In this document: positions 1-32,872 of the stretch, piece after piece
Layout: each line of letters begins with the position of its first letter
Position numbering within the stretch: position 1 is the stretch's first letter
From: a virus
Length of the DNA stretch: 32,872 bases
IMG/VR virus record: IMGVR_UViG_3300030328_001841
Location: 1-32,872 of that record
Strand: one strand, 5' to 3'
The notes under the pieces: model-generated
Databases searched by the model: none
Seen by the model: only the letters and a program-made list of their open reading frames with translations
Told to the model about the DNA's origin: nothing
Program-made: the position numbers and the translations under genes

Positions 1-131
1 AAGAGGTTAAACATAGATAATAATCCTACAAAAGAACATTTAGAAAATTTAAAAACAATAGCTGATAAAGTGTTTCAACCAATAAGAGACCATTTCAGTT
101 GTCCTATACATATTTCTTCTGGTTATAGAGG
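1..131. repeat. Terminal direct repeat, left copy
   Basis: Matches bases 32742-32872 over 131 positions with one difference (A at 78, G at 32819). The change is CAA to CAG, both Gln, in the endolysin frame. The reading frame runs through the junction, so the repeat is assembly overlap of a circular or permuted genome (unit length 32,741 bp) rather than a functional repeat. Confidence 0.95.
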
Positions 132-495
132 TGAGGCATTAAACAGAGCAATTAAAGGTTCTAGTTCTACAAGTTTGCATATGTCTGGACAAGCATTAGA
201 TATTGATATGGACTATACTAATGTTTCTAATAAAGAAATCTTTGAGTTTATAAAAGACAATTTAGAGTTTGATACACTAATATGGGAGTATGGTGATGAA
301 TCACCAAATTGGGTTCATGTTAGTTACAGAGAAGGTAAGAATAGAAATCAAATACTGGAGGCATATAAAGATCCTGTAACCAGTATTACAAAATATAAAA
401 TGTATGAGCCAAGAAAAGAAAAAGAAGAAGTTAAAGGATACAAAAGTAGGAAAGTTCCTTCTAGGAAAGACAGGACTACTAAACAATCTAGTTAA
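1..495 (+). CDS. Peptidase M15-family endolysin (3' part; gene begins at 32688)
   Basis: Joined across the circular junction, the gene is 32688-32741 plus 1-495, giving 182 residues. The body carries the M15_3 (D,D- or L,D-carboxypeptidase/endopeptidase) pattern: ISSGYRG, then SLHMSGQALDID with the zinc-binding His and Asp, then WVHVSY with the third ligand His. Such enzymes cut peptide stems of peptidoglycan. No signal peptide is visible, so export would depend on holin-type pores. A GTG at base 70 is an internal codon, not the start. The lysine-rich C-terminus overlaps the holin gene by 92 bp in another frame. Family assignment is firm; the exact bond cut is not known. Confidence 0.88.
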   Translation, partial: KRLNIDNNPTKEHLENLKTIADKVFQPIRDHFSCPIHISSGYRGEALNRAIKGSSSTSLHMSGQALDIDMDYTNVSNKEIFEFIKDNLEFDTLIWEYGDESPNWVHVSYREGKNRNQILEAYKDPVTSITKYKMYEPRKEKEEVKGYKSRKVPSRKDRTTKQSS

Positions 496-823
496 TATAG
501 CACCTGATACAGGTGTTTTTGGGCTTGTAAAGGACTTAATTAATAAAGATGATAGTTTACCTCCATTAGATAAAGAAGAAGCCTTAAAACTGCTAGAATT
601 AGATATGGCAGAAATGGAGGCTGTAACTAGAAGGTGGGAGGCTGATGCTAAGAGTGGAAGTTGGCTAAGTCAGAATGTAAGACCAATGTCTCTGATCTTT
701 ATGTTATTGGTATATGCAATAGGCTTTTTCTTCAAGTATGAGTTAGATGTAGTTAACCAGCTCCTAATGTTAATGGTTGGTGCTTACTTTGGAGGTAGGT
801 CATTTGAAAAAACCAGATCCTGA
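404..823 (+). CDS. Holin, GTA-type three-TM family
   Basis: The 139-residue protein has a lysine-rich N-terminus (MSQEKKKKKL), a middle acidic helix (LDMAEMEAVTRRWEADA), the conserved stretch SWLSQNVRPMSL, and two clear hydrophobic segments (SLIFMLLVYAIGFFF and LLMLMVGAYFGG). This is the layout of the GTA_holin_3TM family, which forms inner-membrane lesions that release endolysin. It starts inside the endolysin gene (92-bp overlap, different frame), which couples expression of the two lysis proteins. The stop overlaps the next start as TGATG. The family call rests on the WxxD..SWLSQNVRP pattern and membrane topology. Confidence 0.8.
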   Translation: MSQEKKKKKLKDTKVGKFLLGKTGLLNNLVNIAPDTGVFGLVKDLINKDDSLPPLDKEEALKLLELDMAEMEAVTRRWEADAKSGSWLSQNVRPMSLIFMLLVYAIGFFFKYELDVVNQLLMLMVGAYFGGRSFEKTRS

Positions 824-8700: not shown

Positions 8701-9124
8701 AATAAGAAACTTGATAAATGAAATTGAAGCATTATCAGGAATTGAGATATTTAACCCAAGTAGAAGAAGGGAAAATGTAGAAGTAAGGTCTTTATTATAT
8801 ACAGTATTAAAGAAATTCTATAGATTTAATCTAAGAGAAATTCAGGATCTGGCTGAGGAGTATGGTTATTTTATAACTCATGCTAGTGTAATCCATAGCT
8901 TAAATTCATTTGATATATATTCAAAATACAATACAAACTTATTAGATTGGTATAATGCTATCATTATAGATTTAGAAGAAGATGTGGCTGCTGCTAGAAT
9001 AGATTTTATTAGACCTAAATTGAAATATCTTTCAGAGGAGGACTTGTTAAAGTTATCAACAATTGTAAAAGAAATGTATGAAGATGCTGTTATACAAATG
9101 AGTGAAGAAAACTTACAAACTTGA
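8684..9124 (+). CDS. DnaA domain-IV-like DNA-binding protein
   Basis: The 146-residue protein includes a stretch resembling the C-terminal DNA-binding domain of DnaA: RRRENVEVRSLLYTVLKKFY, NLREIQDLAEEYGYFITHAS and VIHSL (compare the DnaA signature with His-Ser/Thr-Thr-Val-Leu/Ile-His). There is no ATPase domain. Such phage proteins may bind the replication origin or compete for DnaA boxes. It overlaps the upstream gene by 17 bp. The AT-rich 952-1112 region is one possible target, but no boxes were identified. Confidence 0.5.
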   Translation: MRNRSRIRNLINEIEALSGIEIFNPSRRRENVEVRSLLYTVLKKFYRFNLREIQDLAEEYGYFITHASVIHSLNSFDIYSKYNTNLLDWYNAIIIDLEEDVAAARIDFIRPKLKYLSEEDLLKLSTIVKEMYEDAVIQMSEENLQT

Positions 9125-9314
9125 CATAAAAAAGACAAAAAAGGGATTTCTCTTTATTTTCTTATTATTATTTTCTTCTTGTTATACAATTAAGAGTTCA
9201 ATAATACATAAGTTAGATGAGACATTACCCAGGTCAAAATATACAAAAGAGAGGATAGAAAAGATAAAAGATTCACTAAGTAAAAGATGGCAAAAGATAG
9301 AGATAAATTTTTAG
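9102..9314 (+). CDS. Small lipoprotein, 70 aa
   Basis: Starts with GTG 9102 (MKKTYKLDIKKTKKG), followed by a hydrophobic core (FLFIFLLLF) and a lipobox-like FSSC, then a short charged mature part (DETLPRSKYTKERIEKIKDS). This is a probable lipoprotein anchored after signal peptidase II cleavage. Position between replication and packaging genes does not reveal the role; surface exclusion or a spanin-like role are both possible. It overlaps its neighbours on both sides. Confidence 0.55.
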   Translation: MKKTYKLDIKKTKKGFLFIFLLLFSSCYTIKSSIIHKLDETLPRSKYTKERIEKIKDSLSKRWQKIEINF

Positions 9315-17400: not shown

Positions 17401-18777
17401 CAAACAGCAGCAACTACTAGGACAGTAACTACAACTACAGATTTGACATTAACTGTAAACTCAACTCCAGCTAGTGCCTCAAGAGTTCAAGACACAGCTA
17501 CTGGTATATGTTATACAGTTACTGGAACTACACAAGACACTACAACATATGCAACTGCAATAGGTCAAGTAACAGATTTAGGAGTATTAGACTGTCCAGG
17601 AACTCCTTGTACTACAACTTTGTATTATCAACTACAACAATGTTCAACTGGTAGTACAAGTTATATAAGTGGTCAAACAACAACTCAAATATCACTTAGT
17701 ACAAATGATATGGTTGCAAGTGGAAGTACATCTGGACCTAGATATAAAGTTGTAGGAACAACTGCTAGTGGTACAACAGTAGGTACTGTGTTTACAGTAT
17801 CTGATAGTGATTGTCCAACATATTATGAGCTGCAACAATGTTATACATTACAAGGAAGTTATAGGACTAATCAAACTATAACTGATATAACATTAAGTGT
17901 AGGAGATAGGGTTAAAGATTCTTGTGGTATGCCTTATACTGTTCAGACAGTTGGAGTGTCTGGAGGAGGTTATGCAAATGTAGGAGATGTTACAGACTTA
18001 GGAGCAAGTGGATGTCCTTCTTATTCTTCACCTACTAGATATGAAATGCAAAAATGTGATGACAGTACAACTGGGCATATTTCATTACAGCAAACATCAG
18101 ATGTAACACTTAGTGTAAATGATACAGTAACAGTAAATTCTATTAGATACCAAATATCTGGAACAAGCACATCTACAAGTGGAGCTGTAGGAGTTATATG
18201 TTCAGATGGAGGTAATAATTGTATTACTCCAGTTACTCCACCACCACAGCCTCCAGCATCTACTTATTATGCTAGATTTATAACTTGTGATGACCCAGCT
18301 GGTGCAATAATATCTGTGTATAGTTCAAGTACAATATCAAGTTGGTGGGTAATTAGTGAGGTAGGTTTATATGAATGCTATAGGTGGTTAGATAATATTC
18401 AAGGTGTGAATCCCACAGAGCTGAATAGTTCTAACTTTAATTTTTTTGCAACAAACAATACTGCTGGTGCTAACTGTATAGATTGTCAAAACCAGTCTCC
18501 ACCTCCTCCACCTCCTCCTCCACCTCCAGCACAAACTTGTTTTCAAGTTGTACTTTATAAAGAGCCAACAAATCCAATTAATTTATGTGGTAATCCAGTA
18601 CAAAGGACTACTAACTTAGATGCATCAACTTTAGCAGCTGCAACTGTTACATATACAGACACAGATTGTACAACTATAAATACAACTCCACAATATTTTA
18701 GTGTTACAGTTGGAGGGAATTACTATTATTGGAATGGTAGTTCTTTCTCTGGACCTTATACACAAAACTGTCCATAA
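14404..18777 (+). CDS. Large baseplate protein with Cys-rich repeat fibre region
   Basis: 1457 residues, the longest gene. Residues 1 to about 720 form a globular part (MSKFQLYIGAEKVDLYTDES; a central part with NLPPIKVIEFLTGLFKMFNL) as in tail-associated baseplate hub proteins. Residues about 728-1285 are about eight imperfect modules of 60-80 residues, each starting with YYxLxxC and ending near DCP, rich in Thr, Ser, Tyr and Cys. A poly-proline hinge (about 1365-1376) precedes a terminal domain (TCFQVVLYKEP). The repeats look like a modular receptor-binding arm. Repeat number can vary by recombination. Confidence 0.65.
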   Translation: MSKFQLYIGAEKVDLYTDESVSLTETIQNIRDVSKVFTDFTKPFNLPASDVNNKIFKHYYRFNLVSGYNFDARRKVDARIELNTIPYREGKIALEGVDLKKGKPESYRVTFFGNTVNLKDILDKDELSGLSWLNNFNTIYSAADIEATLINPLGFQKTVDSVQYDAALIVPLISNTMRLYYDSGSTIPYTNTDGTDNTALGGNLYSTNVGSLGTDDVHGVLFEDLTYSIKVHLIIKAIQEQYEQIVFSDDFFDLTNGPDTYKNLYMLCQKKEGRIFEDLTVAEKQIKGFPLLTSNSIMQMNNDALLVFQQMQSETILARYEMVFSNGHPEFTAIIKEGSEVVLRKTFGAGSGNNITAVISQQLGHSTEGYTLHIETSTAFVIDSLQFVGQGTTGNQYTSQINAAVSIPLEKEFIITDNLPPIKVIEFLTGLFKMFNLTAYQKDGIIHIKTLESFYNSGTLRDITKYVDPQSITIDKALPYKEIEFKYEDTNAILAKQHNEVQGVEWGAANYVETGDLNSSNEKFEVIAPFSHLKYERINGTNTDIQWGFMADEKQEPYFEKPVLFIGEFVNLSSSLRFLTGKTGTSSISDITDYWMPSNYVSRDATVNKEGIHFDLELSEWDSTSAFTETLFNKYYQFYIAGIFNSSKRLTKIKARLPKKFVVNFTLADTVIINNDRYKINSITTELLSGSSLLELLNETVNDATATQVDTGGGNVQTPGSPDTNVLTLYECDSPNATFESTQTLATLNVANNTRVEDSSGNTYKVTGNAAAGAYTTKSITSTGLTDCPTTQTPPPTYYYGLEKCSDNTTNYRTSTAIGSPTYAITQQVFDGSTKYVIRNATELSSVPSVTISSTPSPAQLSCGGNVTTNYYRLTPCCSGTVLIGYHSSSSHSGTVVYQGQTYVISAAGANETGTIDIASLSTGTCTTYYYSLNSCTDGSIQHYGTSNCSNLNNTQLTYSGTCYSIQNTTNQSGSINLDSLSSCSCSNPNPTYYLLRNCQTAATTRTVTTTTDLTLTVNSTPASASRVQDTATGICYTVTGTTQDTTTYATAIGQVTDLGVLDCPGTPCTTTLYYQLQQCSTGSTSYISGQTTTQISLSTNDMVASGSTSGPRYKVVGTTASGTTVGTVFTVSDSDCPTYYELQQCYTLQGSYRTNQTITDITLSVGDRVKDSCGMPYTVQTVGVSGGGYANVGDVTDLGASGCPSYSSPTRYEMQKCDDSTTGHISLQQTSDVTLSVNDTVTVNSIRYQISGTSTSTSGAVGVICSDGGNNCITPVTPPPQPPASTYYARFITCDDPAGAIISVYSSSTISSWWVISEVGLYECYRWLDNIQGVNPTELNSSNFNFFATNNTAGANCIDCQNQSPPPPPPPPPPAQTCFQVVLYKEPTNPINLCGNPVQRTTNLDASTLAAATVTYTDTDCTTINTTPQYFSVTVGGNYYYWNGSSFSGPYTQNCP
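16585..18260 (+). repeat. Coding tandem modules of the baseplate fibre
   Basis: About eight diverged protein modules: YYGLEKC, YYRLTPC, YYSLNSC, YYLLRNC, YYQLQQC, YYELQQC, RYEMQKC and a last variant. DNA copies are diverged, so the repeat is old rather than a recent tandem duplication. Confidence 0.7.
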
Positions 18778-19391
18778 TGAAAGAAATAGAAGGGTTTATA
18801 TCACCAGAAGAAGCTAGGTATTTAATGAGAATGATAGATAATTATGCTAACAAATCTATGGTTGTAGGATCAGGTGATCAGATGAACTCATATAGTGAGA
18901 GTAGAACATCATATACAGCCAATTTAATAGCTAATGACCCAACTGTAGAGTCATTACATAAAAAGATAGCTAAATATTTAGGTTACCCATTACATAAAGG
19001 TGAATCATTACAAGGTCAAAGGTATCAAGAAGGTCAGTATTTTGCATCTCATACAGATTATTTTAAAGGAGACTGTTATGAAAAGAATTGTTTATCAAGT
19101 GGTAACAGAACACATACTTTTATGTTGTATTTGAATGATGATTTTGAAGGAGGCACTACTAACTTTCCACATTTAAAGAGAGAATTTAAACCTAAAAGTT
19201 GTAAAGGAGTAATTTGGAACAATTTACAGCAAGGTGTACCAAATGAATATATGACACATTCTGGAGAACCTGTTACAAAAGGTACTAAATACATAATCAC
19301 AAGTTGGTGGAGAGAAAATAGATGGAATGGAGGAGCTGATGGAAAACTATATGAGGAAAAATTAAAAAGTAGTCAATTAAGTATTATATAA
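18777..19391 (+). CDS. Prolyl-4-hydroxylase-like 2OG-Fe(II) dioxygenase
   Basis: The 204-residue protein shows the double-stranded beta-helix core: SHTDYF gives iron ligands His92 and Asp94, YMTHSGEPVTKGTKYIITSW gives His161 and the 2-oxoglutarate-binding Lys171, and YLNDDFEGGTTNFPH is the typical middle strand. Members hydroxylate proline or other residues using 2-oxoglutarate and O2. It lies directly after the baseplate fibre with its proline-rich hinge (TAATG junction), so a virion protein is a possible substrate. That link is inference. Confidence 0.85.
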   Translation: MKEIEGFISPEEARYLMRMIDNYANKSMVVGSGDQMNSYSESRTSYTANLIANDPTVESLHKKIAKYLGYPLHKGESLQGQRYQEGQYFASHTDYFKGDCYEKNCLSSGNRTHTFMLYLNDDFEGGTTNFPHLKREFKPKSCKGVIWNNLQQGVPNEYMTHSGEPVTKGTKYIITSWWRENRWNGGADGKLYEEKLKSSQLSII

Positions 19392-31805: not shown

Positions 31806-32096
31806 ATGGCAGATTTAGATATAGATGAAATAAAGAAAAAGAAGGTTAATATCTCAGTAGAGAATTTGATCATGATAGGAGTAGGAATATTCTCACTTGT
31901 AGGTATGTGGTTTGCATTACAAGGTGAGATAGATGAGGCTAAAGAATTACCAGAGCCTCCTATAAGCAGAACAGAATTTGACTTAAAAGATTCTGCTATT
32001 AGAAATTCTATATTACAGACAGAGAAGAAGGTAGAAGAAAACTCAGATAAACTTGATAAGATAGATGAGAAACTTTATGAAATAATTAAAAAATGA
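31806..32096 (+). CDS. Membrane-anchored coiled-coil protein, 96 aa
   Basis: One transmembrane helix (ENLIMIGVGIFSLVGMWFAL, about 19-39), then a Pro-containing hinge (KELPEPPISRTEFDLKDSAI) and a C-terminal charged coiled coil (TEKKVEENSDKLDKIDEKLY). It starts the small lysis-region genes. It could be a spanin-type or holin-accessory protein; the coil after a TM fits an i-spanin, but no o-spanin partner is proven. Overlaps the next start (ATGA). Confidence 0.55.
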   Translation: MADLDIDEIKKKKVNISVENLIMIGVGIFSLVGMWFALQGEIDEAKELPEPPISRTEFDLKDSAIRNSILQTEKKVEENSDKLDKIDEKLYEIIKK

Positions 32097-32416
32097 GAAA
32101 TCTAATAATTATATTATCATTACTAATAAGTAGTGTTGCATACAGCCAAGACATAACTATATTACAAGTTAATGCAAAATGGAATAGCCATAATGATATA
32201 GAGATAAGAAACATAAAAGGAGCAAAGATACAATATGCAGTCTTAGAGGATCAGAGTGATAACTTTAAGCAAAGTATTAAATCAGTTCCAGCAATTTTAA
32301 TCTATAAAAATCAATCATTGGTGTGGAAACAAGAGGCAGGTTTATCTTTCACATTATCTATAAGTAGAGATGAGTTGATAGAACTTGTAAAGAAGTATTC
32401 AGACAATGGCAATTAA
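32093..32416 (+). CDS. Exported thioredoxin-fold protein without CxxC
   Basis: A signal peptide (MRNLIIILSLLISSVAYSQ) leads into a thioredoxin-like domain: DITILQVNAKWNSHNDIEIR, IQYAVLEDQSDNFKQSIKSV, then PAILIYKNQ with the typical cis-Pro position after SV. The active-site CxxC is missing (WNSHN in its place), and the mature protein has no Cys. It probably acts in protein interaction rather than disulfide exchange, in the periplasm. It lies in the lysis region. Fold is judged from pattern only. Confidence 0.6.
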   Translation: MRNLIIILSLLISSVAYSQDITILQVNAKWNSHNDIEIRNIKGAKIQYAVLEDQSDNFKQSIKSVPAILIYKNQSLVWKQEAGLSFTLSISRDELIELVKKYSDNGN

Positions 32417-32573
32417 TGATTTTGAACCCACTATTGTTGGCATAGTAGTATTTGTATTAAGCCTTCATCAATTAAATGAAGTTTTACAAGCAGTATTACT
32501 AATAATGACAATTATATATACTTTGTTCAGAATTATAGAAATGATAGATACTAGAAAAAACAATAACAAATAA
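32406..32573 (+). CDS. Small membrane protein, holin-like, 55 aa
   Basis: Two hydrophobic segments (TIVGIVVFVLSL and AVLLIMTIIYTLFRII) separated by a short polar loop, then a basic end (RKNNNK). Starts 11 bp inside the previous gene. Size and topology fit a second holin or antiholin alongside 404-823. No family is certain. Confidence 0.6.
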   Translation: MAINDFEPTIVGIVVFVLSLHQLNEVLQAVLLIMTIIYTLFRIIEMIDTRKNNNK

Positions 32574-32584
32574 AATTAATCAAG

Positions 32585-32683
32585 ATGGTAAGAATTTTAA
32601 AATGGTTAACAGATAAAATAAAAGCATTCAATAATAAAGTTGCAACTGCTTGGAATAAGTGGTTGAAAAAAATTAAAATGTAA
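32585..32683 (+). CDS. Cationic amphipathic peptide, 32 aa, in lysis region
   Basis: MVRILKWLTDKIKAFNNKVA is followed by TAWNKWLKKIKM. One Arg and eight Lys against one Asp give a net charge near +8. Hydrophobic residues I4, L8, I12, F15, V19, W23, W26 and I30 fall at 3-4 spacing, making one face of a helix, with Lys on the other. This is the form of membrane-active antimicrobial peptides and of the phage disruptin class. It lies between a holin-like gene and the endolysin (stop at 32683, endolysin ATG at 32688). ORF is short, so translation must be shown. Confidence 0.55.
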   Translation: MVRILKWLTDKIKAFNNKVATAWNKWLKKIKM

Positions 32684-32687
32684 ATAG

Positions 32688-32872
32688 ATGAAACTAAGTA
32701 AGAATTTATCTTTAGCAGAGGTAGTAAGAAGTGAGACAGCAAAGAGGTTAAACATAGATAATAATCCTACAAAAGAACATTTAGAAAATTTAAAAACAAT
32801 AGCTGATAAAGTGTTTCAGCCAATAAGAGACCATTTCAGTTGTCCTATACATATTTCTTCTGGTTATAGAGG
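32688..32872 (+). CDS. Peptidase M15-family endolysin (5' part, continues at base 1)
   Basis: The real start is ATG 32688, giving MKLSKNLSLAEVVRSETAKR and then a helix NIDNNPTKEHLENLKTIADK before VFQPIRDHF and the M15 SGYRG motif. At base 32742 the frame matches window base 1 exactly. The continuation is described in the entry for 1-495; the total is 182 residues. No signal peptide at this N-terminus. Confidence 0.88.
   Translation, partial: MKLSKNLSLAEVVRSETAKRLNIDNNPTKEHLENLKTIADKVFQPIRDHFSCPIHISSGYR
32742..32872. repeat. Terminal direct repeat, right copy
   Basis: Second copy of bases 1-131. It carries the 5' part of the endolysin gene. The single mismatch to the left copy is synonymous and may be a population variant or a read error. 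Confidence 0.95.

Follow-up and report, generated by a model that had tools for sequence, protein, structure and literature searches.

Among the described lysis proteins, the one that most resembles the peptide considered here is gp28 of the Escherichia phage phiKT (Holt et al., J Bacteriol 2022), whose role is reportedly backed by the activity of the synthetic peptide and by complementation in lambda. Translated from NC_019520, gp28 is a protein of 56 aa with a net charge of +7, and its gene lies between those of the endolysin and the holin. Passages of PMC12819732 present it as the archetype disruptin, with effects like those of LL-37, and describe systematic prediction of disruptins as complicated by their diversity, which makes them hard to predict. 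In the 2018 spanin survey of Kongari et al. (PMC6139136), phiKT is listed as spanin-less, as are the Croceibacter phages P2559S and P2559Y, which are cultured Flavobacteriia phages. About 13% of the phage genomes in that survey have no identifiable spanin, and the spanin partners are separated by at most about 1 kb.

The window, that is, the whole stretch of DNA that was analysed, comprises the 32,872 nucleotides of IMG/VR virus record IMGVR_UViG_3300030328_001841. Like gp28, the peptide encoded near its end is small, cationic, and amphipathic, lacks a signal peptide and a lipobox, and is encoded among lysis genes. It differs from gp28 in being 32-36 aa long, aromatic-rich, predicted to form a single helix, and known from sequence alone; moreover, its host is probably a member of the Bacteroidota instead of Escherichia. 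Homology to gp28 was rejected, there being no detectable sequence similarity, and since the disruptin class is defined by function such homology is not required. Two-component spanins (Rz/Rz1; PMC6139136), which are also encoded in the lysis block, would perform the same lysis step if our preferred explanation is right; the peptide has neither a transmembrane (TM) segment nor a lipobox and is therefore not a spanin. We regard it as the candidate of a new family that may act like a disruptin, its membership in the class being unproven.

The virus and its lysis genes

Positions 1-131 of the window repeat positions 32742-32872 in direct orientation with at least one mismatch, and the record is probably circular or redundantly assembled and near complete. 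Because the ends of the window are repeated and cut, the endolysin gene is split across them. The nearest terminases include those of Flavobacterium phages, the nearest cultured major capsid protein is that of the Nonlabens phages P12024S/L (Inhavirus, 28.5% identity), and no obvious Shine-Dalgarno sequence was seen by eye at the start sites; given these nearest capsid and terminase proteins and the missing Shine-Dalgarno sequences, a Bacteroidota host is likely. Also present, among the tail genes (18777-19391), is a 204-aa ORF whose product looks, by eye, like a 2-oxoglutarate/Fe(II) oxygenase of the prolyl hydroxylase type.

At the junction, the genes follow one another in the order 96-aa TM/coiled-coil protein, 107-aa secreted protein, 55-aa two-helix protein, peptide, M15 endolysin, and phrog_3427 holin (Table 1), the membrane segments and signal peptides of the window having been called by eye from the sequence.

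Table 1. Features of the window that bear on lysis, with their coordinates.
Feature	Position	Strand	Remarks
Peptide gene, candidate disruptin-like	32585..32683	+	ATG to TAA, 32 aa
55-aa two-helix holin-like protein, two hydrophobic segments by eye	32406..32573	+	Directly upstream of the peptide
Endolysin, N-terminal part, Peptidase_M15_3	32688..32872	+	Runs on at 1-495
Endolysin, remainder	1..495	+	First 131 bases duplicate the window end
139-aa membrane protein, likely main holin	404..823	+	phrog_3427 'holin', E 6e-15
96-aa protein, N-terminal hydrophobic segment and charged coiled-coil-like C-terminus by eye	31806..32096	+	i-spanin-shaped
107-aa protein, signal peptide by eye	32093..32416	+	Thioredoxin-like pattern without Cys pair, unconfirmed
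70-aa lipoprotein-like ORF, possible remote o-spanin	9102..9314	+	GTG start, lipobox FSSC

The joined endolysin of 182 aa matches PF08291 (E 3e-16) and phrog_894 'endolysin' (E 5e-34). With the peptide lying between this enzyme and the two-helix holin-like gene, the location in a lysis block that the earlier note had claimed is confirmed. The two-helix protein, typically about 50 aa long across the relatives, weakly resembles phrog_920 'holin' (E 0.25 for the window copy and 0.054 for a 48-aa homologue). The 96-aa and 107-aa proteins (together 31806-32416) co-occur in 13 of 13 genomes; the AlphaFold2 model of the latter, which is free of cysteine, was unusable for a fold search (pLDDT 42). The endolysin itself has a cationic C-terminal tail (net +7 over the last 41 residues) that could be membrane-active, and membrane activity has been suggested for other endolysins (Kongari et al. 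2018, PMC6139136).

The peptide and its conservation

The ORF product is MVRILKWLTDKIKAFNNKVATAWNKWLKKIKM, a peptide with nine Lys/Arg residues and one Asp (net charge +8) and three Trp. The ORF is present as the earlier note had it; only the distance to the endolysin had to be corrected, as four bases (32684-32687) and not five separate the stop codon from the endolysin ATG at 32688. The regular hydrophobic face ascribed to the peptide is borne out by a hydrophobic moment of 0.53 (100 degrees per residue), which lies above shuffles of the peptide's own composition by z = 3.5 and is reached by 2.5 per 1000 of them. None of the 8231 32-residue stretches from the other window proteins matches both the charge and the moment. 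An amphipathic helix is predicted, the AlphaFold2 model consisting of one helix (residues 3-31, mean pLDDT 86). Since a helix is a common prediction for many such peptides, the model backs the shape and not the function. The mean Eisenberg hydrophobicity is -0.05, and no signal peptide, lipobox, or TM segment was found in the sequence. Searches of the PHROG and Pfam holin families, including phrog_920 and phrog_3427, which the cassette neighbours match (weakly in the case of phrog_920), gave no match. The peptide's PHROG matches (phrog_7652, phrog_11403, and phrog_6394, families of unknown function) are weak and differ between members, and were therefore left out of the argument; a sequence and fold search of the PDB yielded nothing useful.

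When the endolysin was used as an IMG/VR query, 80 relatives were obtained, many of which have a 32-aa ORF at the same position. A search of IMG/VR with the peptide alignment located homologues on at least 80 viral contigs (44 distinct sequences) and reached lineages whose adjoining M15 endolysin shares no more than about 45% identity. The 44 peptides are 32 or 36 aa long and without exception cationic (+3 to +9, with +3 or +4 in some homologues), and the moments of homologues exceed those of same-composition shuffles by z values of 1.7-4.1. Within the 32-aa lineages, homologues are 59-88% identical to the window peptide, and start, stop, and length are constant in 28 of 28 distinct sequences. 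Purifying selection was observed over 19 distinct nucleotide sequences (pN 0.109, pS 0.503, pN/pS 0.22), with an excess of synonymous changes between the window and L005, L008, and L026 (Fisher p = 3e-5, 2e-4, and 3e-4, respectively). The near-invariant residues V2, R3, I4, N16, W23, and N24 include uncharged polar ones.

A set of 20 near-complete genomes (19 records and the window) was compared. All of them encode the M15 endolysin (20) and the phrog_3427 holin (20); the two-helix protein is found in 17, the pair of 96-aa and 107-aa proteins in 13, and the lipoprotein in 4. The peptide occurs in 17 of the 20, each time together with M15 and phrog_3427. Averaged over 136 genome pairs, the peptide is 71% identical, the holin 65%, and M15 60%. 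In the 72 pairs whose M15 proteins share less than 60% identity, the peptide is the better conserved of the two 69 times, and where M15 has diverged to 45%, the peptide still retains a mean identity of 67%. Its conservation in the near-complete genomes at least equals that of the endolysin. The search of related genomes for a conserved ORF at this locus, which the earlier note had proposed, was thus successful, and the ORF is a real, conserved gene.

No homologue was found in a collection of 50,697 phage records or in the lysis regions of P12024S, P2559S, and P2559Y. In P12024S, a cultured Flavobacteriia phage, the endolysin is followed by the holin. The 395 sampled Bacteroidota genomes likewise contained no homologue, a weak result with no positive control among those genomes.

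Gene neighbours were counted for 78 peptide copies with usable flanks, 76 being readable on each side. The upstream neighbour is the two-helix protein in 61 cases, usually within a few bases of the peptide gene, the 107-aa secreted protein in 7, and a 91-aa TM/coiled-coil protein in 5. The downstream neighbour is the M15 endolysin in 47 cases, a tail protein in 16, the phrog_3427 holin in 7, and another gene in 6; on one contig with a tail-gene neighbour (L145), about 4 kb separate the peptide from the endolysin and holin, which are located upstream of it. The endolysin is ruled out as an obligate partner by peptide copies more than 1 kb away from it (L010, L014, and L145). An obligate partnership with the two-helix protein is weakened by G003, which has an exact 123-base end repeat, and G005, in both of which the peptide is present and a profile search found no two-helix protein.

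Some relatives encode other small proteins in this region. In the sister lineage of G018 and G019 (L062 and L074), the place of the peptide directly before M15 is taken by an unrelated protein of 50 aa, whose N-terminus is cationic and amphipathic and precedes a membrane segment. G006 (L009 and L018) has neither the peptide nor the two-helix gene, and upstream of its M15 gene an 87-aa Cys-rich, zinc-ribbon-like protein is encoded whose N-terminus looks helical. Near the holin genes of L133, L147, L150, L158, and L081 lies a very basic peptide of 43-45 aa with an RPGVHSK/RPGVHAK motif.

The outer-membrane step and competing readings

The best explanation of the peptide, which we hold with moderate confidence, is a disruptin-type outer-membrane breaker that serves as a third lysis effector; the cassette context, the absence of a signal or TM segment, and a complete relative without lipoprotein make this reading the best one. 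The peptide would be synthesized late, together with the holin(s) and the M15 endolysin, and for want of a signal or TM segment it would remain inside the cell, either in the cytoplasm or at the cytoplasmic side of the inner membrane, until triggering. Once the holin opens the inner membrane, the peptide would exit with the endolysin, and after cleavage of the peptidoglycan it would bind to the periplasmic side of the outer membrane and break it. The disruptin-like character that the earlier note had proposed is partly supported, namely as regards the conserved gene, the lysis cassette, the cationic amphipathic helix without signal or TM segment, and the relatives without a spanin-type lipoprotein. 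It fits less well with the commonest neighbour, which is the two-helix protein and not the endolysin, and with a conservation tighter than a generic membrane-breaker requires; the near-invariant residues suggest a specific partner over generic lipid disruption. The 16 contigs with a tail-gene neighbour, the distant endolysin of L145, the homologues of low charge, the missing sequence similarity to gp28, and the possible spanin pair of the window also speak against the disruptin-type reading.

With regard to spanins, the earlier note had considered the case that no classic pair exists, which applies to relatives such as G007 and is less clear for the window. The exact 123-base end repeat of G007 marks its genome as complete. 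It carries the peptide, M15, and holins, two lipobox scans of the coding strand brought up no lipoprotein ORF, and it also lacks the 96-aa protein, which is absent from four peptide carriers among the 20 near-complete genomes. Without a lipoprotein, this complete relative has no o- or u-spanin, and carriers of its type, having neither protein, need some other outer-membrane route, for which, within the lysis block, the peptide readily suggests itself as a candidate. For the window's phage, a split spanin pair made up of the 96-aa protein and the 70-aa lipoprotein is conceivable in principle. That they do act as a two-component spanin, with the peptide as an accessory or regulatory factor, appears quite unlikely to us. 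By eye, their topologies fit i- and o-spanins; the 4 of the 20 near-complete genomes in which the lipoprotein was found all belong to the 13 that encode the 96-aa protein; and for a 91-aa analogue encoded by relatives, PHROG gives a very weak Rz-like hit (E 0.12). However, about 10 kb separate the two genes on the circle, compared with the limit of about 1 kb in Kongari et al. 2018, no lipoprotein was detected in 9 of these 13 genomes, and the constant companion of the 96-aa protein is the secreted 107-aa protein (13/13). The lipoprotein ORF, the single good one of the window, moreover begins with GTG and has no spanin family match. It overlaps the beginning of the gene that immediately precedes that of the terminase large subunit, and homologues with 65-83% identity were found in one fragment and three further near-complete genomes.

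The main rival to the disruptin-type reading makes the peptide a holin partner, which would bind the two-helix protein or the inner membrane and, as a co-holin, antiholin, or pinholin-like factor, help trigger or restrain the inner-membrane lesion. We consider this possible and on the whole unlikely: the two-helix gene directly upstream in 61 of 76 copies, the residue-specific conservation (R3, I4, N16, W23, and N24), and the amphipathic protein with membrane segment that fills the slot in G018 and G019 speak for such a partner, whereas G003 and G005 keep the peptide without the two-helix protein and the peptide has no TM segment. Some other specific job without membrane disruption, for example the binding of the endolysin or of a host envelope protein, would accord with a conservation at or above that of endolysin and holin and with the invariant polar residues. 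It is nevertheless very unlikely, as the peptide adjoins M15 enzymes as divergent as 45% identity, is distant from the endolysin in some genomes, and is strongly amphipathic in a way that is typical of membrane binders. The ORF is very short and packed tightly between genes, as a leader ORF acting as a mere translational coupler for the endolysin might be, but its pN/pS of 0.22, its fixed length, the 59-88% identical homologues, and the copies away from the endolysin make that barely credible; a chance ORF is ruled out by purifying selection and the homologues.

Significance for spanin-less phages

If the disruptin-type reading is carried further, it can be proposed tentatively that the family constitutes a second, shorter disruptin class that evolved independently, is unrelated to gp28, and is widespread in uncultured spanin-less Bacteroidota phages. 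Possibly, the two-helix holin-like protein specifically recruits such disruptin-class peptides.

The 44 natural variants, nearly constant in length, the recurring cassette, and the existence of at least one complete carrier without spanins make the family a cheap direct test set. It offers a route to learn how spanin-less phages open the outer membrane and is also a source of natural short amphipathic peptides. If the proposed function is true, a previously unnamed family of 32-36 residues would account for the outer-membrane step in many spanin-less Bacteroidota phages.
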